Assembly (NCBI RefSeq): GCF_001375555.1
Contig: NZ_CTDZ01000009.1
Span: 434,001 to 498,000 of the forward strand
Length of the DNA stretch: 64,000 bases
Direction of reading: 5' to 3'
Origin: Numidum massiliense
GTDB lineage: Bacteria; Bacillota; Bacilli; Thermoactinomycetales; Novibacillaceae
The notes under the pieces were generated by a model, which was not told the origin of the DNA, searched no databases, and worked only from the letters and a program-made list of their open reading frames with translations. Every line of letters starts with the position of its first letter. Positions within the stretch are counted from its first letter, which is position 1. Positions 7,074-15,840 of this stretch are shown here, one piece after another. Position numbers and translations under genes: made by a program.

Positions 7074-8108
7074 TTGTCAGATCAACAAAAGTGGGAACGC
7101 CTCCTGCCACGCGTATTCCACGCATACCATTGGCAGCCGCTTAGTGTACGAAAGGTACGAGGTGCATTTCGCGTACAGACATCCAGTAACACCTTCGCCC
7201 TTAAACCGATTGGAGCGACAGAGGAGCGGTTATCTTTTTTGCACAAAATGACGGTGCACTTATTAGACAAAAACTATAAGCATGTCCTGCCGTGGATGCA
7301 GACGAGGCGGGGGGATCCATTTTTCCTACACGAGGGCCAGGCGTTTTATGCGACCCCGTGGTATGGAAAAGAGTTTTCGTCCGAATCGTCGCCAGCGATC
7401 GGGGAATTGGCGCGTTCACTCGGGGAGATGCACCAATTGACGAAAGATGTAACAGTAAGCAGTTCGTCGTCAACCGCGTCGCTCACACAAACCGCCAGCC
7501 GTGTTAACGCGCAAAGTGAACAGTTGCGGGCATATGCCGAGACAGCTGAGCAGCGCACAAATAAATCGCCGTTTGACGTAACCTTTTTAGAAAATGTGGA
7601 AGAACTACAGCAAGGGGCCACTTTCGCTGTCAAAGGCATACAGCGTGCGGCGGTCCTCGCTGCGGAGAAGCCATTCCGCCAGGTGTACTGCCATCGAAGC
7701 ATTCACCGACACAACGTCGTGAAGCGAGGGGGACGGTGGAAGTGGATCGATTTTGACAAAGCGGATCTTGATGTTCCCGTACGCGATTTAGCCGTCCTTT
7801 TGCAACGGTTTGTTAGTGAGGACACTTCCTTACAAACGTTAGAAGGCGTGTTGCTAGCGTACGAACAAGCGTTAAAAATCGATGCGCGGGAAAAGCGGTT
7901 GCTCGGGTTGTTGTTAGCGTATCCCGACCACGTCTTTCGGCAACTCAGACGGTACTACGACAGAGATGAACACCGCGAAGAAATGGCTAGCGTCGAACAG
8001 TTGAAGGCTTCGATCGCCCGTTATCAGGTCGTGAAGCGCTTGGCCAAGCAGCTCGTCACACGCCGTAACGGAAGCGCGCGAAGGCAAAAAATGTCTGTAA
8101 AAAACTAA
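7074..8108 (+). CDS. ysxE: YsxE/CotS-family spore coat protein (aminoglycoside-phosphotransferase fold)
   Basis: Kinase-like proteins of the CotS/YsxE/YutH group associate with the spore coat in Bacilli; their substrate is unknown. The 344-residue protein has the fold's late motifs: CHRSIHRHNVV (catalytic-loop-like, with serine where many members carry aspartate) and WIDFDKADLDVPVRDLAVLL (metal-binding DFD). TTG at 7074 follows a near-perfect AAAAAGGAGGTG. It lies 109 bases after spoVID, with which it is probably co-expressed in the mother cell (inference from synteny). Catalytic activity is uncertain. Confidence 0.85.
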   Translation: MSDQQKWERLLPRVFHAYHWQPLSVRKVRGAFRVQTSSNTFALKPIGATEERLSFLHKMTVHLLDKNYKHVLPWMQTRRGDPFFLHEGQAFYATPWYGKEFSSESSPAIGELARSLGEMHQLTKDVTVSSSSSTASLTQTASRVNAQSEQLRAYAETAEQRTNKSPFDVTFLENVEELQQGATFAVKGIQRAAVLAAEKPFRQVYCHRSIHRHNVVKRGGRWKWIDFDKADLDVPVRDLAVLLQRFVSEDTSLQTLEGVLLAYEQALKIDAREKRLLGLLLAYPDHVFRQLRRYYDRDEHREEMASVEQLKASIARYQVVKRLAKQLVTRRNGSARRQKMSVKN

Positions 8109-8140
8109 TCGGCTCCTTTTTTTTCAAACTGCGCGATGCC

Positions 8141-8184
8141 CATCGTTAAAACGATGCGCGGAACTTTGCGTAGTTTTTTATTTT
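8141..8184 (+). terminator. Possible weak terminator after ysxE
   Basis: A 7-base-pair inverted repeat (8141-8147 with 8150-8156) inside a CGCG-flanked palindrome is followed about 15 bases later by a T-rich stretch (8173-8187). The distance to the T-run is longer than in a classical terminator, so this is tentative. Confidence 0.35.
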
Positions 8185-8243
8185 TTGTTAGTCAATCGTG
8201 TTCGCGAGAACGTCACTTATTTGTCAGAAATTCAATTCGGCCT

Positions 8244-8272
8244 TTGTCAACCGACACGTTATACTTTATAGT
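8244..8272 (+). promoter_or_regulatory. Sigma-A-type promoter upstream of the small membrane protein and ctaB
   Basis: TTGTCA at 8244-8249 and TATAGT at 8267-8272 are separated by 17 bases. It lies about 115 bases before the next gene start and after the possible ysxE terminator. Confidence 0.6.
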
Positions 8273-8387
8273 GTAATATCTAGGCATAGTCGGTTTTCGT
8301 TTAAATGTGTTATGATGGTTGATGGATACCATTGTCGAAAGTGTCGACATTATTGTGTATAAGGAAGCGCGGGCTGGGAGGGCAGCA

Positions 8388-8654
8388 ATGATACCAAATG
8401 TCGTTCTCGCTTACAATGTAGATCCGCTATTTTTTGCGATCATGGCTGTTAGCGTTGCCGTTTTTTTCGTCATATGGGTCGTACATATGACGTCGCTTGC
8501 GAAGCAATTTATAAAGGGTGAGCGCCGCCAAATGTTCAGCCTGTTGATCTGGACGATTGTACCGGCTCTGTTCATCGCCGGTTTTATTTGGTTCGGCCCG
8601 CAAGTGGTGGATAATATGCAGCAAGTAGCAGTGATACTTAAAACGAACGGTTAA
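8388..8654 (+). CDS. Small membrane protein of unknown function, upstream of ctaB
   Basis: An 88-residue protein with two predicted membrane spans, about residues 11-31 and 48-68, joined by a short basic loop (KQFIKGERRQ). I do not recognise a family. ATG at 8388 is chosen because GGGAGGGC lies 5-10 bases upstream; an in-frame TTG at 8319 has no ribosome-binding site. It ends 100 bases before heme O synthase and probably shares its promoter, so a role at the respiratory membrane is possible, by context only. Confidence 0.65.
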   Translation: MIPNVVLAYNVDPLFFAIMAVSVAVFFVIWVVHMTSLAKQFIKGERRQMFSLLIWTIVPALFIAGFIWFGPQVVDNMQQVAVILKTNG

Positions 8655-8754
8655 GCCTATTTACTCGGGATGGCTATTTATGTGTCGATCAACGGACTTA
8701 TATTTACGCGTTGTGAATGAGGAAATGGCGAAGCGTGTTGTAGGAGGTGATTGC

Positions 8755-9714
8755 GTGGAAAGAGAAGTGGTTTGCGGGACGGGAACGGAGTCTTCGCTGC
8801 AGCAGGAGCAATCGCATGTAGCTTCGCAGCAAGTGGGCTGGCGCGACTTCGTGACGGTGACGAAGCCGGGCATTTTACGTTCCAACTTATTGAGTACAGC
8901 AGTCGGATTTTGGTTAGCGGTGCATTCGTTTCAATTAAGCGAAGCGTCCGCATGGAATACCCTGTTCCTTTTTTTATATACGTGTCTTGGAACGACGCTC
9001 GTCATGGCCTCTGGTACTGTGCTCAACAACTATTTAGACCGCGATTTAGACCGCTTAATGGAACGGACAAAAAATCGTCCCTCCGTACAGCGAATGAAGC
9101 CAAAAACACTTCTAAGCTACGGACTCGTTCTTGGAATTTTAGGTGTTATCGTTTTGTCGTTCGTGAACATCCTGTCTGCCGTGTTAGGCTTTTTAGGTAT
9201 TTTTTCATACGTTGTCGTTTATACGGCCTTACTTAAGCGGACGAGCACTCTCAACACCGTCGTCGGTGGCATTCCCGGGTCGATTCCGCCTATGATCGGT
9301 TGGTGTGCCGTGTCGGGAACGTTGGACGCGGCGGCTTGGATCTTATTTGCTTTCGTCTTTTTGTGGCAGCCACCGCATTTTCTCGCCTTGGCGATGCTCA
9401 GGGCCGAGGAGTACAAACATGCCGGTTTTAAAATGCTGCCGCAAAGCGTCGATGACCACGAGTCGAAATGGCAAATTTTGTTGTGGGTCGCGGCGTTAGT
9501 GCCATCGTCGCTACTGTTCTTTTTGTTGCCGAATATCGGTTACATTTACTTAACTGTCGCCGTTGTTCTCGGCAGTGTGTACGTCTATTGCGCCTTGCAA
9601 GGGGTGCTAGGTAAGGCAAAAGACGGTAAGCGCTGGGCTGGAAAAATGTTCGGTTACTCGCTCATGTATTTAGTCGTCATTTACGCGGCACTCTTTATCG
9701 ATGCGGTGCTTTAA
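8755..9714 (+). CDS. ctaB: Protoheme IX farnesyltransferase (heme O synthase)
   Basis: Integral membrane UbiA-family prenyltransferase that adds farnesyl to heme B, giving heme O for heme-copper oxidases. The 319-residue protein has multiple hydrophobic spans, the Mg-diphosphate motif NNYLDRDLDRLMERTKNRP, YTALLKR and a second acidic loop (EEYKHAGFKMLP, DDHESKW). GTG at 8755 is chosen for TAGGAGGTGA immediately upstream; an earlier GTG/ATG at 8680 would add a non-homologous tail. No ctaA or oxidase subunits are nearby, so it is separated from the usual cta cluster. Confidence 0.96.
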   Translation: MEREVVCGTGTESSLQQEQSHVASQQVGWRDFVTVTKPGILRSNLLSTAVGFWLAVHSFQLSEASAWNTLFLFLYTCLGTTLVMASGTVLNNYLDRDLDRLMERTKNRPSVQRMKPKTLLSYGLVLGILGVIVLSFVNILSAVLGFLGIFSYVVVYTALLKRTSTLNTVVGGIPGSIPPMIGWCAVSGTLDAAAWILFAFVFLWQPPHFLALAMLRAEEYKHAGFKMLPQSVDDHESKWQILLWVAALVPSSLLFFLLPNIGYIYLTVAVVLGSVYVYCALQGVLGKAKDGKRWAGKMFGYSLMYLVVIYAALFIDAVL

Positions 9715-9726
9715 GCACATGATACG

Positions 9727-9742
9727 CCTAGGTGCCTAGGTA
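9727..9742 (+). repeat. 8-base tandem repeat GCCTAGGT x2
   Basis: Two perfect copies of an 8-mer containing the palindrome CCTAGG lie just after the ctaB stop codon. Confidence 0.7.
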
Positions 9743-9805
9743 CGGTGAATGTAACACAGGTGCGGGGCATCGATATTAGTAGGACATGAATGAGGTATAA
9801 AATGG

Positions 9806-9850
9806 ACACACTACTACCGATCCGAAAGTTTGGAAAGAGGGGTAGTGTGT
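9806..9850 (+). repeat. Inverted repeat enclosing a ribosome-binding site
   Basis: ACACACTAC at 9806-9814 is the exact reverse complement of GTAGTGTGT at 9842-9850. The 27-base loop contains GGAAAGAGG, part of the Shine-Dalgarno sequence of the following 60-codon gene, whose ATG is at 9853. The hairpin could control its translation. Confidence 0.55.
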
Positions 9851-9852
9851 AA

Positions 9853-10035
9853 ATGAAACCATTCAAAAACGGACGACAACGGACAAAGCAGTCACAGCCT
9901 TATAAGCCGAAGGCAAGGCGATCGCTACCACCTATTGAAGACACGGAGTTTGCCTCCGAAGGGTTAGTGAACAAAGCGATCCAACGCTCTTATCGGCAAA
10001 GCGGTCGGCCGAATGAACCGCTCGACGAGGAATAG
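9853..10035 (+). CDS. Small basic hypothetical protein (60 residues)
   Basis: The N-terminal half is rich in Lys/Arg/Gln/Pro (FKNGRQRTKQSQPYKPKARR); the C-terminus is acidic (NEPLDEE). There is no membrane span or signal peptide. It has a Shine-Dalgarno sequence (GGAAAGAGGGG, about 10 bases before ATG) and is followed 38 bases later by a clear terminator, which together support a real monocistronic gene. I do not recognise the family; a small spore- or nucleic-acid-associated protein is possible but unproven. Confidence 0.6.
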   Translation: MKPFKNGRQRTKQSQPYKPKARRSLPPIEDTEFASEGLVNKAIQRSYRQSGRPNEPLDEE

Positions 10036-10073
10036 GTTGACTGTAAAAGAGAACATATGTGACACATACGGTT

Positions 10074-10104
10074 AATCCCGCTTGCGTAGCGGGATTATTT
10101 TTTT
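10074..10104 (+). terminator. Rho-independent terminator (AATCCCGC hairpin)
   Basis: AATCCCGC (10074-10081) pairs perfectly with GCGGGATT (10089-10096) around a TTGCGTA loop, followed by ATTTTTTT. Close relatives of this hairpin recur at 13587 and 14887. Confidence 0.9.
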
Positions 10105-10112
10105 AGGGATAG

Positions 10113-10154
10113 TGACAATTTCACTGATGTGTGACAATATGACCATATCACTGA
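10113..10154 (+). repeat. Two direct TGACAAT...CACTGA repeats, possible operator
   Basis: TGACAAT at 10113-10119 and 10132-10138 is each followed by CACTGA (10122-10127 and 10149-10154). The pair lies 27-68 bases upstream of the -35 box at 10181 and could be a regulator-binding region for the ABC cluster. Confidence 0.35.
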
Positions 10155-10180
10155 CGAACAATTTTTTTTTGAGTTAACAG

Positions 10181-10209
10181 TTGACAGGAATATTTAAATA
10201 TATTAAACT
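10181..10209 (+). promoter_or_regulatory. Sigma-A-type promoter of the ABC transporter cluster
   Basis: A consensus TTGACA at 10181-10186 and TAAACT at 10204-10209 are spaced by 17 bases, within an AT-rich stretch. Gap 10210-10401 holds a 17-codon ORF (10314-10367) and then a small stem (CTA-GTG with CAC-TAG) that overlaps that ORF's stop. Confidence 0.65.
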
Positions 10210-10313
10210 GAAAGCGGTTAATATTAGAGAGGTTATATGTAGCATTATTTGCAACATTTTACGTTAGATAGATAGCTATCGCTTAAAGTTTTGGAAAAAC
10301 AAAGGAGGATACT

Positions 10314-10367
10314 TTGACGCCTTTAAGATCAAAGGCGCTTGGAACCCGGATAGTTTTTAAGGACTAG
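10314..10367 (+). CDS. Putative 17-codon leader peptide upstream of the ABC cluster
   Basis: TTG at 10314 follows AAAGGAGGAT, one of the best ribosome-binding sites in the window, and opens a 17-codon frame (TPLRSKALGTRIVFKD after the start) that ends in TAG at 10365-10367, 34 bases before the first permease. Its stop lies in a small hairpin. It may be a regulatory leader or a small secreted or toxic peptide; it lacks a signal sequence and resembles no peptide I know. Confidence 0.35.
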   Translation: MTPLRSKALGTRIVFKD

Positions 10368-10401
10368 GTGTATTCACTAGGCAGAAAGTGAGAGATGACT
10401 A

Positions 10402-11217
10402 GTGTTCTTATCGGAGTTTAAAAGAGGCATCTTGAATAGACGGATGTTAGTAACGTGTGTACTTTCTTTAATCGTCATGTATTGGACCGTTTACGACAGA
10501 ATTTTAGATAGTGGGACTTTTTTCGATCCAGACGCACCCGATTTGAAAGACAATCCCGAAGTGGTTAAGAGTCTTTATGAGGAAGGACATAACAAATACA
10601 ATGTCTGGGATAACACCTTATACCACTTAGGATTATTATTTCCTTTAATTGTCGTTTTTCCTTATGCGGCTTCTTTTTTAGAAGATCGTTCGCACAAGTT
10701 TTATTATTTCATTCAAATGAGGAAATCTGCTGATCAGTATGTACTGGGTAAATATTTGGTTGTTACCATGGTCGGCGGGCTCGCGATCTTTATCCCGCAG
10801 ATTATTTTTTACGCTGTGCTTTCGATCGTTTTTAAAAACGAAGCTGACTCGCCGTATCGCATTTTAAAAGATGAAGGCTTGTTTTATACACTTTTTAATA
10901 CATCGCCGGAAGCGTACATTTAGCTTACTTTTTTGACGCATTTTTTACTCGGGGCTTGCTTTGCTGCAATGGCACTTTGCCTTTCTAGTTTTGTTAAGAA
11001 AAAAGCGGTCGTTTATATCGCGCCCTTTCTTATTTTTGCCGCTTGGGAGATTACTGTAGGGGCGATCCTCGGTCTATATCAATTTTCCCCGACGACATGG
11101 TACCAAATGTGGCCAGAAGTACACCCACTGTACGTATATGGCTCTATGGCCACTATTTTGATTGCATGCTGCTTGTTGTTTGTTTGGCAATCGAAGCGGG
11201 TGAGAGTAAATGGATGA
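10402..11217 (+). pseudogene. ABC-2-type permease interrupted by an in-frame TAG
   Basis: Codons 1-173 (from GTG 10402) and a continuation after TAG at 10921-10923 are in the same frame and together read as one permease of about 270 residues. The order is a span near residues 15-30, an extracytoplasmic loop, LLFPLIVVFPYAASFL, GGLAIFIPQIIFYAVLSIVF, then after the stop LLGACFAAMALCLSSF, VVYIAPFLIFAAWEITVGAILG and a final span. A single base change in a sense codon (for example Gln, Tyr or Trp) explains the stop. A TTG at 10933 could restart a 94-residue C-terminal piece, but no good ribosome-binding site precedes it. Sequencing error, true inactivation or readthrough are all possible. It is the first of four ABC genes and overlaps the next by 8 bases. 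Confidence 0.75.
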
Positions 11218-12034
11218 AGCATGGCCACGGCAAGGGGATGTCCTGTGCAACTATAGTAAACAAAAACTAAAACAGGTAATAAAAAATCGGAAAACAGAAC
11301 TGTTTGTGTTGCTCGTATGCGCTTCGACGTTCCTTGCTAATAGCACCTTACGATCAGTTGGACGTGACTCACTCAATATGTGGGATTTAATATATGGCAT
11401 GCTTGTTCATCCGTATTACCAACTTTTTTTGTTTCTGCTTTTCTTTTTGTTCGTCGTGCGCGACATTTGCGACGATCGGCCAATTATGCAGTTTATCCTG
11501 CTCCGGTTAAAGCAGAAAGCGACTTGGTTGTGGGCGAAAGGGCTACTCGTATTAATTATGAGTACGTTATATACGTCGGTTTATTTGGCAATTATAACCG
11601 TTAGCGCCTTTTTATTGTACGGTTACGATGTTACATGGAGTGCGGGAGCAATGGCGTTTGCACACGGGGAATTCGTCGATGACATACGACCAGGCGCAGG
11701 TTTTATCTTGATCGTTATACGCCATTTTTTGAGCATATGGTTCGTGAGTATGTGTTATTTACTTGTATACAGTTACGCACCTAGGTTTAGAAATATCACA
11801 GCGGGCATAGTCACACTGATGCTGCTCATCTTTAATCATCTATTCGCTTTCGGCTTCTTTGTTAAGTTCGCACCTTTTCTTTACATTCACAATCAATATA
11901 TCCATGTTGTCAGAGTCGACGAAAATGGGTGGCAGGCGGCGATGTTGTTGAATGCAGCCGTTCTTTCCTCGATTATTTTCATCGTTTTACTACTCTGGTG
12001 GCGAAAATCTAAACTACAATTTACGGAGTCGTGA
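11210..12034 (+). CDS. Membrane protein of the ABC cluster, second permease
   Basis: A 274-residue polytopic protein with about six hydrophobic spans (for example YYQLFLFLLFFLFVV, VLIMSTLYTSVYLAIITVSAFLL, ITAGIVTLMLLIFNHLFAFGFF, LLNAAVLSSIIFIVLLLWW). The layout, with a short cytosolic N-terminus and paired spans, fits an ABC-2-like permease. ATG at 11210 overlaps the stop of the interrupted permease, which indicates translational coupling. I do not recognise a named family or substrate. Confidence 0.8.
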   Translation: MDEAWPRQGDVLCNYSKQKLKQVIKNRKTELFVLLVCASTFLANSTLRSVGRDSLNMWDLIYGMLVHPYYQLFLFLLFFLFVVRDICDDRPIMQFILLRLKQKATWLWAKGLLVLIMSTLYTSVYLAIITVSAFLLYGYDVTWSAGAMAFAHGEFVDDIRPGAGFILIVIRHFLSIWFVSMCYLLVYSYAPRFRNITAGIVTLMLLIFNHLFAFGFFVKFAPFLYIHNQYIHVVRVDENGWQAAMLLNAAVLSSIIFIVLLLWWRKSKLQFTES

Positions 12035-12037
12035 ACG

Positions 12038-12820
12038 ATGCATAGATGGTTAACGCTTGTTCAATTTAATGTCCGTCACTTTACGTATAAGCAATGGTTG
12101 TGTGCGATCGCAGCTTTTTGCTTGTCGACCTTTTTCACAATCTTGTATTACGGAGGACACGCCGTATCGCTGCTGGATGCGTTTATTTACCACTTCAGCA
12201 TATTCGGCGGAGCCGACTTTATCATTGTCATTCATACGTTGCTCCCTTTTTTGATTCTAGCTTTTTTTGTCGACTTATATACGGAGAACAATTTAAACGA
12301 CAATTTACTGTACACGCTTTTACGCGTAACAAAGATAAACCTTTGGGCTTCTTCGCACTTGGCTGTCTTGTTTGCCATGCACGTCGTATTTCTTGGCTTA
12401 TATTACGCGATTGCGTGGGTCGTTTTGCCATTGTTTTACGAACACGGCGCTGTAACGGTCCTGTATTGGACGGAAACGGCGTCTCTTGATCACTTCTATC
12501 CGGTGCCGTTCGTTTTGCTCTTTTCGTTGCTAATCCAAGTCAGTGGCGCTTTCGGGCTCAGTTTGTGGCAGCTGTACGTTAATGCGTTGTCGCAACGGGT
12601 TGGTTACGGCTATCTGTCAGTCGTCTTGATCTATCTTTTGGCGTTCATTTTTCCTCTTAAAAATGTGTGGATTGGGAGCCACGTAACGCTAGAGAAGTAT
12701 GGCGTACTAGCTGCTGGCAGTGGGGAGTACTCTGTCGCCATCTTTTTCGCCGTTCACACGGTGTGGATTGTCCTGTTCATTTCGTTACTATGTCGCCTGT
12801 TTTGGCAAAGGAAATTTTAA
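12038..12820 (+). CDS. Membrane protein of the ABC cluster, third permease
   Basis: A 260-residue polytopic protein with six likely spans, including LCAIAAFCLSTFFTILYYGG, FIIVIHTLLPFLILAFFV, FAMHVVFLGLYYAIAWVVL and a C-terminal VWIVLFISLLCRLFW. ATG at 12038 is 3 bases after the previous stop. It resembles its two neighbours in size and layout but not obviously in sequence, so the cluster encodes three non-identical permease-like proteins for a single ATPase. Confidence 0.8.
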   Translation: MHRWLTLVQFNVRHFTYKQWLCAIAAFCLSTFFTILYYGGHAVSLLDAFIYHFSIFGGADFIIVIHTLLPFLILAFFVDLYTENNLNDNLLYTLLRVTKINLWASSHLAVLFAMHVVFLGLYYAIAWVVLPLFYEHGAVTVLYWTETASLDHFYPVPFVLLFSLLIQVSGAFGLSLWQLYVNALSQRVGYGYLSVVLIYLLAFIFPLKNVWIGSHVTLEKYGVLAAGSGEYSVAIFFAVHTVWIVLFISLLCRLFWQRKF

Positions 12821-12850
12821 ATAGCAAGGTAACCTAGGAAGGTGATCACG

Positions 12851-13522
12851 ATGACAACTGCGTTAAAAGTGAGTCGTTTAACGAAATCGTTCAAGAAGGA
12901 AACTGTATTCGAAAACGTTAATTTGGAGCTTCCTTCGGGAAGTATTTACGGTTTTGTCGGGCATAACGGGAGTGGCAAGTCAGTTTTCTTTAAAGTATTG
13001 TGTGGCATCTTGCTGCCAAATAAAGGAACCGTATCAATATTTGGCCAAGTATTAGGAAAAGACATTGACTTTCCAGACAAAGTGGGCGCCGTAATCGAAA
13101 CCCCGGGGTTTTTACCTGAATACTCCGGATTTAAGAACTTGAAGTATTTAGCTTCGATCCGTAAACTAATTGGCGACGATGAGGTTAAAACGGCGATGGC
13201 ACGTGTCGGGTTAGATCCGAATAGCCGCAAAAGCGTTAAAAAGTATTCGTTAGGGATGAAGCAGCGATTGGCGCTTGCCCAAGCGATTATGGAGAGACCA
13301 CAGATGTTAATTTTGGATGAGCCGATGAACGGTTTGGATAAGACAGGGGTTAAGCAGATTAGGGAGTTGTTGCTGACTTTAAAAGCACAGGGGACGACCA
13401 TTTTATTAAGTAGTCATATGAGTGCCGACATTCATTTGCTCTGTGATCACGTGTATGAGTTTGACAATAAAACGCTCGTTGAGGTTACCAAAGAGGAATT
13501 GGTAGATGAAATAACGTCGTGA
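12851..13522 (+). CDS. ABC transporter ATP-binding protein
   Basis: The 223-residue nucleotide-binding subunit has Walker A GHNGSGKS, a Q-loop region (GAVIETPGF), signature YSLGMKQRLALAQ, Walker B MLILDEP and switch histidine LLSSHMS. It is of the BcrA/YxlF type, which mostly drives peptide-antibiotic resistance or export. ATG at 12851 follows AGGAAGGTGAT; GTG at 12842 in the same frame overlaps that site. It closes the permease cluster and is followed by a terminator at 13587-13613. Substrate unknown. Confidence 0.93.
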   Translation: MTTALKVSRLTKSFKKETVFENVNLELPSGSIYGFVGHNGSGKSVFFKVLCGILLPNKGTVSIFGQVLGKDIDFPDKVGAVIETPGFLPEYSGFKNLKYLASIRKLIGDDEVKTAMARVGLDPNSRKSVKKYSLGMKQRLALAQAIMERPQMLILDEPMNGLDKTGVKQIRELLLTLKAQGTTILLSSHMSADIHLLCDHVYEFDNKTLVEVTKEELVDEITS

Positions 13523-13586
13523 TTCCGTTAGTGTGTGACGGGATGGGAGTCGCATATCACATGTATGGTACGATTGGTACCATGGG

Positions 13587-13613
13587 ATCCCGCTCGCGTA
13601 GCGGGATTTTTTT
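13587..13613 (+). terminator. Rho-independent terminator after the ABC cluster
   Basis: ATCCCGC (13587-13593) pairs with GCGGGAT (13601-13607) around TCGCGTA, followed by seven T. Bases 13591-13612 are identical to 14891-14912. Confidence 0.88.
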
Positions 13614-13620
13614 ATGTCAA

Positions 13621-13839
13621 GATGACAGAATCGCTTGCGGCTTTAGCGCCCTGCTCGCCTCTGATTTCGCCATATTGGACAATTTTGGTATAATAACGTT
13701 AATTAACGTTTCCCTCGCTTTGTTTAGCACGGTCGTCGTTAAGCCTGCCATACTTGTCGCGTTAGACCGATTCGTGCACACGAAGCTAGTAAAACGGTTA
13801 GTAGGTGAAAGTAGGATGATGGATGAAAAGTGCGGCTGA
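13621..13839 (+). pseudogene. 3' fragment of an RND/MMPL-family efflux transporter
   Basis: The frame encodes FSALLASDFAILDNFGIITL, then INVSLALFSTVVVKPAILVA and LDRF, which matches the last two membrane helices of MMPL/HAE3-type pumps (family pattern FGALLFSDFPILRDFGLITV, then LPALLVLLD). The remaining roughly 700-1000 residues are absent, and the homology begins only a few bases after the terminator at 13587-13613. Its 3' end overlaps the TetR gene by 17 bases, an arrangement typical of a pump gene and its repressor. Confidence 0.75.
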
Positions 13840-14398
13840 ACGAATTGTAGACGCAGCGATCGATATCTTTGCAGAGAAGGGGTTCACCCAAGCAACGACA
13901 CAAGAAATAGCGAAAGCAGCAGGGGTTGCGGAAGTTACCCTTTACCGTAAGTTTTCCACGAAGCAAAACGTATTCCTTTCCGTCGTGAGAACGGTCATCG
14001 ACGATCAATTTGAGGCGGGAATGACGCGGCGGGCAGAAACGAACGACACGCGCCAATTACTGAGACAGATCGTTTCCAACAGGTTGGACGTCTTTTCTAA
14101 AAATGAACAATTAATCAAGATGCTCCTATCGGAAAGTTTAATGGGGCATGTAAGTGCCGACATTAACTTACCTGCCCTGTTGTACGATAGCATTAAAAAA
14201 AGTTTAGCCACTCATTTTGATGCGACTGGGCAGGCGGTAAATATCGAACATTGTGCGCGGCAGTTGGGAGGCATCTATTTAAGTCACATTGTGTTTCCAG
14301 CTGACACACCTTTTTTCAAGTTATCCTCGGCGGAAAAGGAAGCGGTCGTCGATCAATATGTCGATGCGCTGATCGCCTCCCTCGAACAAAAAAAGTAG
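13823..14398 (+). CDS. TetR-family transcriptional regulator
   Basis: 191 residues. The N-terminal helix-turn-helix spans about residues 5-50 (IVDAAIDIFAEKGFTQATTQEIAKAAGVAEVTLYRKFSTKQNVF is the region; key motif TLYRKF). The rest is a helical ligand-binding domain of the TetR_C type. ATG at 13823 follows GTAGGATG. It overlaps the end of the pump fragment at 13621-13839, which was probably its target. With the pump gone, the regulator may be an orphan or may control distant genes. Confidence 0.92.
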   Translation: MKSAAERIVDAAIDIFAEKGFTQATTQEIAKAAGVAEVTLYRKFSTKQNVFLSVVRTVIDDQFEAGMTRRAETNDTRQLLRQIVSNRLDVFSKNEQLIKMLLSESLMGHVSADINLPALLYDSIKKSLATHFDATGQAVNIEHCARQLGGIYLSHIVFPADTPFFKLSSAEKEAVVDQYVDALIASLEQKK

Positions 14399-14472
14399 CA
14401 CGACGAGCGATGAGGGGACCGTGCCGTTACCGCTCAGATGGCGGGCGATACGTCACTAGTATAGAAGACCTC

Positions 14473-14498
14473 TTGTTGGGTTAGGTTGTTGGGTTAGG
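14473..14498 (+). repeat. 13-base tandem repeat TTGTTGGGTTAGG x2
   Basis: Two perfect copies, 14473-14485 and 14486-14498, in the spacer about 75 bases after the TetR stop codon. The 199-base spacer 14399-14597 holds no gene. Confidence 0.8.
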
Positions 14499-14551
14499 CT
14501 GTGCAATATGAATGGGCGAGCTGTGAGGCTGTTGGGAGCGGAGGCGAGCTG

Positions 14552-14593
14552 AGCTGTTTAGAGTGCGTCCACAAGGGGGCACCCTAAACAGCT
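14552..14593. repeat. 15-base-pair inverted repeat beside the MOSC fragment
   Basis: AGCTGTTTAGAGTGC (14552-14566) and GCACCCTAAACAGCT (14579-14593) pair with a single mismatch. There is no T-run on either strand, so it is not a typical terminator, though it sits right at the 3' end of the minus-strand MOSC fragment. Confidence 0.7.
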
Positions 14594-14597
14594 TTGG

Positions 14598-14807
14598 CTA
14601 CTTCCGTACCTTCGGCGGATCGTAGACGATCACTTCGACCTCGTCTCCCGGGGCTATTTTTCCCGGCCGCTCGACGACACAGACAATCCCCCGTAACCCT
14701 AAGGCAGATTTCACAAATTTGGAGGCCAATTTGGACTGTTGCGGGTAGTGCCTTTGGATGATCTCGCCCGGCTGTGTGCACGGCAAGTTTTCGCTATTTA
14801 TATCAAT
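14598..14807 (-). pseudogene. C-terminal fragment of a YuaD-like MOSC-domain protein
   Basis: Read on the minus strand, about 68 codons encode ENLPCTQPGEIIQ, SKLASKFVKSALGLRG, IVCVVERPGKIAPGDEVEV, the C-terminal third of a MOSC domain, including the cysteine (PCTQPG) of the family motif. The closest relative I can recall is B. subtilis YuaD. A TAG interrupts the frame upstream at about 14808-14810 and no N-terminal part is seen nearby. MOSC proteins handle sulfur or molybdopterin-bound substrates; this remnant is too short to be functional. Confidence 0.75.
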
Positions 14808-14886
14808 CTATTTTATCGCAATGGTAGAAAAACTGAAAGCGCGCCTTGAACTGTCGCTTAGTTAGTTAAAGAAACGAATGGCGCTG

Positions 14887-14912
14887 AATCCGCTCGCGTA
14901 GCGGGATTTTTT
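14887..14912 (+). repeat. Third copy of the CCGC...GCGGGATTTTTT hairpin
   Basis: AATCCGC (14887-14893) and GCGGGATT (14901-14908) with loop TCGCGTA and a T-run; one C is missing from the left arm compared with the copies at 10074 and 13587. It points along the plus strand, although the genes on both sides are on the minus strand, so it terminates no obvious gene. Confidence 0.75.
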
Positions 14913-14955
14913 ATTTGCGAAGTTGTCGGTATGACCTAGGCGACGTTGCCGCCAT

Positions 14956-15840
14956 TTACCCGTTAACGACAACTCCGCCGTTGACGTGGATGATTTGTCC
15001 GGAGATGTACGAAGCGTCGTCGGAGGCGAGAAAAACGTATGCCGGAGCGATCTCCTGGGGCTGTCCGGCTCTCCCGATCGGGTTCGTACTGCCCCAGTCC
15101 GCAACTTGGTCGGCGGGAAATGAGGCGGGGATGAGCGGGGTCCACACTTTTCCCGGGGCGACGCCGTTGACGCGGATACCGCGCCCGATGAGCGATTTGG
15201 ATAAGGACCGCGTAAAAGCGACAATCGCCCCTTTTGTCGCGGCATAGTCCATTAACTGCTCATTGCCTTCGTAGGCGGCGAGTGAGGCAGCATTAATGAT
15301 GGCGCTGCCGGGGCGGAGGTGGGGGAGAGCCGCTTTCGTTAAAAAAAAGGTGGCGAAAAAGTTCGTTTGAAACGTGCGCATCATTTGCGTCGTTGAAATG
15401 TCTTCCAACTTGTTTTGTACATGTTGTTCGGCGGCGTTGTTCACGAGAATGTCGAGCTGTCCGAAAGCGGCGATCGTTTGATCCACCACGTCGCGGCAAG
15501 CCGTTTCTTGGCTAATGTCGGTGGCAATGGCCATGCAGCGACGCTCCTTCTGTTCGACGATTCGTTTCGTTTCTTCCGCGTCTTCGTGCTCATTAAAATA
15601 GACGATGGCGACATCTGCCCCTTCTTTCGCAAAGGCGACGGCGATCGCTCGTCCCATGCCGCTATCGCCACCGGTAATAAGGGCGACTTTGTTATGCAGT
15701 TTTCCACTCGCTTTGTAGGCGGGATTGTCGAAGAACGGACGCGGCGTCATAACTGTTTCTAATCCCGGTTGCTGATTTTGATGTTGCGCCGGGTAAGGCG
15801 GTGCCGGATAAGTCGTTACTGGATTCATGACTTTGTTCAT
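14956..15840 (-). CDS. SDR-family oxidoreductase (YhdF/YdaD-type)
   Basis: An NAD(P)-dependent short-chain dehydrogenase of 294 residues. It has the N-terminal extension of the general-stress subfamily (PAPPYPAQHQNQQPG, then MTPRP), the nucleotide motif TGGDSGMGRA, NNAA, catalytic Ser in INAASLAAYEG and YAATK, and the C-terminal SYISGQIIHVNGG. Relatives in B. subtilis include YdaD and YhdF. It lies 64 bases downstream of the pyruvate-oxidase-like gene on the same strand, a pairing seen around ydaD/ydaP (known to be sigma-B dependent there). I could not find a convincing sigma-B promoter here. Substrate unknown. Confidence 0.9.
   Translation of the reverse strand: MNKVMNPVTTYPAPPYPAQHQNQQPGLETVMTPRPFFDNPAYKASGKLHNKVALITGGDSGMGRAIAVAFAKEGADVAIVYFNEHEDAEETKRIVEQKERRCMAIATDISQETACRDVVDQTIAAFGQLDILVNNAAEQHVQNKLEDISTTQMMRTFQTNFFATFFLTKAALPHLRPGSAIINAASLAAYEGNEQLMDYAATKGAIVAFTRSLSKSLIGRGIRVNGVAPGKVWTPLIPASFPADQVADWGSTNPIGRAGQPQEIAPAYVFLASDDASYISGQIIHVNGGVVVNG

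Follow-up and report, generated by a model that had tools for sequence, protein, structure and literature searches.

An in-frame TAG interrupts the first permease gene of a small-protein/ABC transporter cassette in Numidum massiliense

The window analysed here is a stretch of 64,000 nucleotides from the genome of Numidum massiliense (contig NZ_CTDZ01000009.1, positions 434,001 to 498,000), and its coordinates are counted from its first letter. It carries genes for an ABC transporter with three permeases (A, B and C) and an ATPase, preceded by what is left of a small-protein gene, here referred to as the companion. Percent identities in the list refer to Aeribacillus composti (locus L028), which has the nearest permease A found.

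10277..10360, plus strand: companion gene remnant, last 27 codons and TAA; shares 18 of 27 residues with the end of the Aeribacillus companion
10402..10920, plus strand: permease A, part before the stop (173 codons); 57% identical
10921..10923, plus strand: in-frame TAG; sense codon in 24 of 24 aligned relatives
10924..11217, plus strand: permease A, part after the stop (97 codons and TGA); 68% identical
11210..12034, plus strand: permease B, open; 57% identical
12038..12820, plus strand: permease C, open; 52% identical
12842..13522, plus strand: ABC ATPase, open; 75% identical; best NCBIfam match TIGR03740, below cut-off

The assembly has TAG at 10921-10923, within the reading frame that GTG 10402 opens. 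This ORF encodes an ABC-2 permease (271 codons counting the stop) that is cut after residue 173; past the TAG the frame continues for 97 further codons, up to the TGA at 11215-11217, and the 3' end of the gene overlaps the start of permease B by 8 bases. No second stop or frameshift was detected along the gene. A single stop flanked on both sides by at least 90 open codons occurs at 17 places in the window, and since in-frame resumption is this common, the reality of a broken permease A rests on homology. Both halves align without frameshift to single relatives (L028, G053 and G105), and the A. composti protein is 61% identical and open throughout. A search of the class (398 genomes) gave 24 matched places in 20 genomes, with a stop inside the match in one of the 24, the window's own. 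Among the 24 aligned relatives, all with a sense codon in the TAG column, the residues are F (8), L (7), G (3), W (2), I (2), Y (1) and T (1); the site is thus not invariant, and in five of these relatives, A. composti among them, the codon is one base step from TAG. As far as the assembled sequence goes, these alignments confirm what an earlier note on this DNA had claimed, i.e. that an in-frame TAG splits an ABC permease gene and that the frame resumes straight after it.

According to the hydropathy profile the stop, residue 174, falls at the beginning of a hydrophobic segment (171-199), and the truncated protein is without this segment and those at 201-226 and 242-263; the segment 201-226 is not above threshold in A. 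composti. Translation would end after residue 173, with a product that would lose its last two or three hydrophobic segments. The first start codon after the stop is TTG 10933, nine bases on, and no clear ribosome-binding site was seen by eye. Given the lost segments and a post-stop piece that is not preceded by such a site, a working permease A is probably not produced.

The note had also described the rest of the operon as intact. This holds for permeases B and C and the ATPase, all of which are open, but not for the companion gene upstream of A, which is cut to its last 27 codons. The remnant comprises codons 10277-10357 followed by TAA, and its frame is closed further upstream. In A. composti a small-protein gene (L028 5511-5855 by the listed start) lies directly upstream of A, and its product ends YRLKIWKEKGGKFDRFTMKGKWNPDTY. 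Searching the whole N. massiliense genome with this companion recovered the remnant (E 9e-8) as the sole match below E 0.001, and window positions 9700-10450 gave no convincing match to other parts of the companion. An HMM trained on five companions of other genomes, with the window left out, picked up the remnant in the upstream regions (E 2.4e-6), and in the six frames of the window the remnant was its top match (7.6e-6; the next at 1.8); on reversed sequences nothing scored below 0.2. In the 398 genomes of the class the companion search gave the window remnant and one weak match (G141, E 1.9e-4), which is part of a larger frame where a contig begins; no permease was seen among the adjoining ORFs.

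The G+C content of the block 10034-13640 is 42.0% versus 53.7% in the remaining window, and neither permease B nor permease C is matched by Pfam or NCBIfam at E 1. Close relatives of A are scarce, both in the 398-genome class search and in a scan of genome contigs; with the alignment of A the scan gave one relative, A. composti, and with permease B it confirmed none, while 3 of 61 genomes, the source of the window among them, gave a match to permease B. No match to permease A, the Aeribacillus companion, the G373 companion or the G185 permease was detected in a plasmid collection, and the regulator upstream of the Aeribacillus cassette has no match at E 1 in window positions 8000-10500. The low G+C content together with the patchy occurrence fit horizontal acquisition, and the ABC cassette was probably acquired in this way as a dispensable block.

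Directly after the ATPase gene lies the tail of an HAE3/MMPL RND transporter, of which just the last ~43 residues are left (13630-13758; positions 690-732 of the 733 of the TIGR00921 profile, E 1.3e-9), in an ORF (13519-13839) that overlaps the start of a TetR gene. The genome has no other match to it below E 0.001, and the 3' limit of the acquired block may lie at this tail. At 10032-10102 there is a sub-threshold Rfam match to the Trp leader (22 bits versus a gathering score of 41), perhaps an ordinary terminator hairpin.

The cassette is spread over Bacilli. Where the regions have enough flank (L028, G185, G397, G373 and G072), the gene order is companion, permeases A, B and C, and ATPase. 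Of 25 loci, 12 have a sequence upstream of A that passes the inclusion threshold of the companion profile; five of these are its training loci, and the window remnant is one of the seven others. The weakest match is L023 (E 0.002). No companion was recognised in the other 13, close relatives G053 and G105 among them; L008, one of the 25 loci, had a shorter upstream stretch. All 12 companion sequences end near G-x-W (in G185 in another frame), and a signal-peptide-like start follows an in-frame start codon in seven of them as judged by eye (G373, G210, G397, G185, L018, L022 and L023). Six companions had no Pfam match at E below 0.01, with one DUF4179 match at 0.02, and against NCBIfam the Aeribacillus companion gave one insignificant match (E 0.078); a resemblance to DUF2712 proteins was considered and rejected, as no such Pfam match appeared at E 1. 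AlphaFold returned a low-confidence all-beta model for the Aeribacillus companion alone (mean pLDDT 53). A narrow literature search around the cassette gave no title or abstract that describes it. When intact, the cassette would probably encode a transporter that exports its small partner or protects the cell from it.

Five of the 12 companions appear damaged by eye (those of the window, L028, G185, L009 and G025b), the one in the window through loss of its 5' part. In A. composti (L028 5427-5855) the signal-peptide stretch is in frame with the mature part and no start codon precedes it in that frame, while eight consecutive A follow a GTG that lies in another frame; the defect could reflect phase variation, slippage, decay or an error. 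The conserved C-terminal end of the G185 companion (L037 5977-6384) is in a different frame from the rest, the L009 and G025b companions lack an in-frame start with a full signal peptide, in G072, too, no full signal peptide is evident, and a second companion copy in G397 is truncated. Some of this damage could be due to assembly errors.

Damage to the permeases occurs elsewhere as well. The second cassette of G025 (G025b, L035 2293-3923) has an A frame of 224 codons, compared with 256 to 319 stop to stop elsewhere, without the N-terminal part in frame, and its permease B matches fall in two frames. From its sequence this cassette looks decayed too, which weakens the idea that the transporters are always kept. 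Permease B of G105 (L033 71-742) matches to residue 202 of 276 only, near a contig end, and may be truncated or frameshifted.

Several observations bear on the age of the break in permease A. The part after the stop matches A. composti at least as well as the part before it (68% versus 57% identity), and its differences per codon are 0.22, 0.16 and 0.58 at positions 1, 2 and 3; the similar match and the third-position bias indicate that the stop is young. With G053 as outgroup, the window lineage has 24 amino-acid changes versus 15 in L028 before the stop (p 0.20) and 8 versus 10 after it, and none of A, B, C or the ATPase has a significant excess on the window lineage. Neither relaxed selection nor further lesions are thus seen in A, as expected if the break is recent. 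In simulations with 75 neutral substitutions in A (9% of its length), 4.5% of the runs left the gene without a further stop; with the whole A-B-C-ATPase block neutral, the figure for 75 substitutions (2.4% of its length) was 4.1%. That few simulated runs stay free of stops again argues for a recent break. Recent inactivation, readthrough and sequencing error were the three options named in the earlier note, and the first is the best supported, where recent means relative to the divergence from the nearest relative found.

Taken together, our data make it likely that permease A has suffered a recent nonsense mutation, in a cassette of a small protein and an ABC transporter that is no longer kept whole. 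The companion, cut to 27 codons, is a second lesion in the same cassette, and because this gene upstream of A is also mostly gone, the locus looks like the decay of an ordinary gene cluster rather than a special decoding trick. The companion gene would probably have been lost first and permease A thereafter. What speaks against decay is that the three downstream genes (B, C and the ATPase) are fully open and that A itself carries no further lesion.

The same openness of A apart from the one codon in question is what an error in the consensus sequence or assembly would leave, in which case the living strain would have an intact permease A. The conserved post-stop frame with its third-position bias, and a codon one base step away in 5 of the 24 relatives, are also in line with this. 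The genome is, however, rated 100% complete in 9 contigs, and the truncated companion is a lesion of another type that cannot be a base-call error; we regard an error as unlikely, while giving it some weight.

That the stop is read through, by natural suppression or recoding, with a low level of full-length A as the result, appears improbable. The frame is as conserved after the stop as before it, and the parts of Belinky et al. (2021; PMC7918605) drawn on here present in-frame stops as a widespread feature of bacterial genes on which purifying selection still acts, and regard such stops, where other signs of decay are missing, as poor markers of pseudogenes; their focus is on stops common to two or more species. 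Here, in contrast, the stop is common to none of the 24 relatives. We detected no CUA anticodon among 55 tRNA-like places in the genome, of which 54 were read by ARAGORN and the remaining one has a UGU anticodon by Rfam alignment. That place (L082 108-179, minus strand; 41.8 bits) has a mispaired acceptor stem and no ARAGORN call, and is perhaps a decayed tRNA-Thr. The PylS model TIGR02367 had one match in the genome (26 bits versus a cut-off of 178); in control genomes it matched 13 of 14, over the cut-off in one. In the window TAG closes 14 of 54 long non-overlapping ORFs picked mechanically (13 of 53 without the broken A), and Rfam has no match at the stop site, the sole sub-threshold match in 8000-15000 being the one at 10032-10102. 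Without a common stop, a CUA tRNA or a PylS over the cut-off, the readthrough option of the earlier note is left unsupported, while weak leakage at UAG is possible.

It is very hard to believe that the split gene works as two polypeptides, for which the TTG nine bases after the stop and the short G025b A frame without its N-terminal part could be cited, since inspection by eye showed no suitably spaced Shine-Dalgarno-like stretch ahead of TTG 10933, none of the 24 aligned relatives is split at this place, and the short G025b A belongs to a cassette with B matches in two frames that looks decayed too.

Returning to a recent nonsense mutation as the preferred reading, the permease should be flagged as interrupted in the annotation and is unfit as evidence for readthrough. 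The broken permease is ordinary in itself, and the often damaged companion is the better lead. A by-product of the analysis is a conserved small-protein/ABC cassette in Bacilli for which no family name was found in this analysis. We tentatively suggest, with more doubt than conviction, that it represents an uncharacterised bacteriocin-like or exported-protein system in which the small component is repeatedly damaged and the transporter, as an orphan protection module, is mostly kept open, and that the window and G025b would represent the next step, loss of the transporter. The damage to the small protein in 5 of 12 loci provides a simple test of the idea that it is an antimicrobial whose protection transporter has been retained.

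Among known systems, the LanFEG-type lantibiotic immunity transporters, which have two permease subunits, are similar in several respects. The ATPase of the window matches TIGR03740 (lantibiotic protection ATPase; E 5.6e-54, 183.2 bits), the cut-off of 309.75 not being reached, and the best NCBIfam match of the pre-stop part of A is the MutG permease TIGR03733 (E 3.8e-4, below the curated cut-off); in relatives, ABC-2-like permeases also lie beside a small-protein gene. Unlike LanFEG, the cassette has three permease genes, A, B and C (in the window, L028 and G053), instead of two, and its companion, which frequently begins with a stretch resembling a signal peptide (as judged by eye), gave no Pfam match at E below 0.01. 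With three permeases and an ATPase below the cut-off, we do not file the window cassette as LanFEG. The stops treated in the parts of Belinky et al. (2021; PMC7918605) considered here resemble ours, a single in-frame TAG in an otherwise conserved frame, but here the stop was seen in one genome only and an adjoining cassette gene is broken. Compared with an ordinary nonsense pseudogene, the locus differs in that the downstream operon genes are still open, and shares with it a homologous gene with one stop, a sense codon at this position in 24 of 24 relatives, and a damaged adjoining gene of the cassette.
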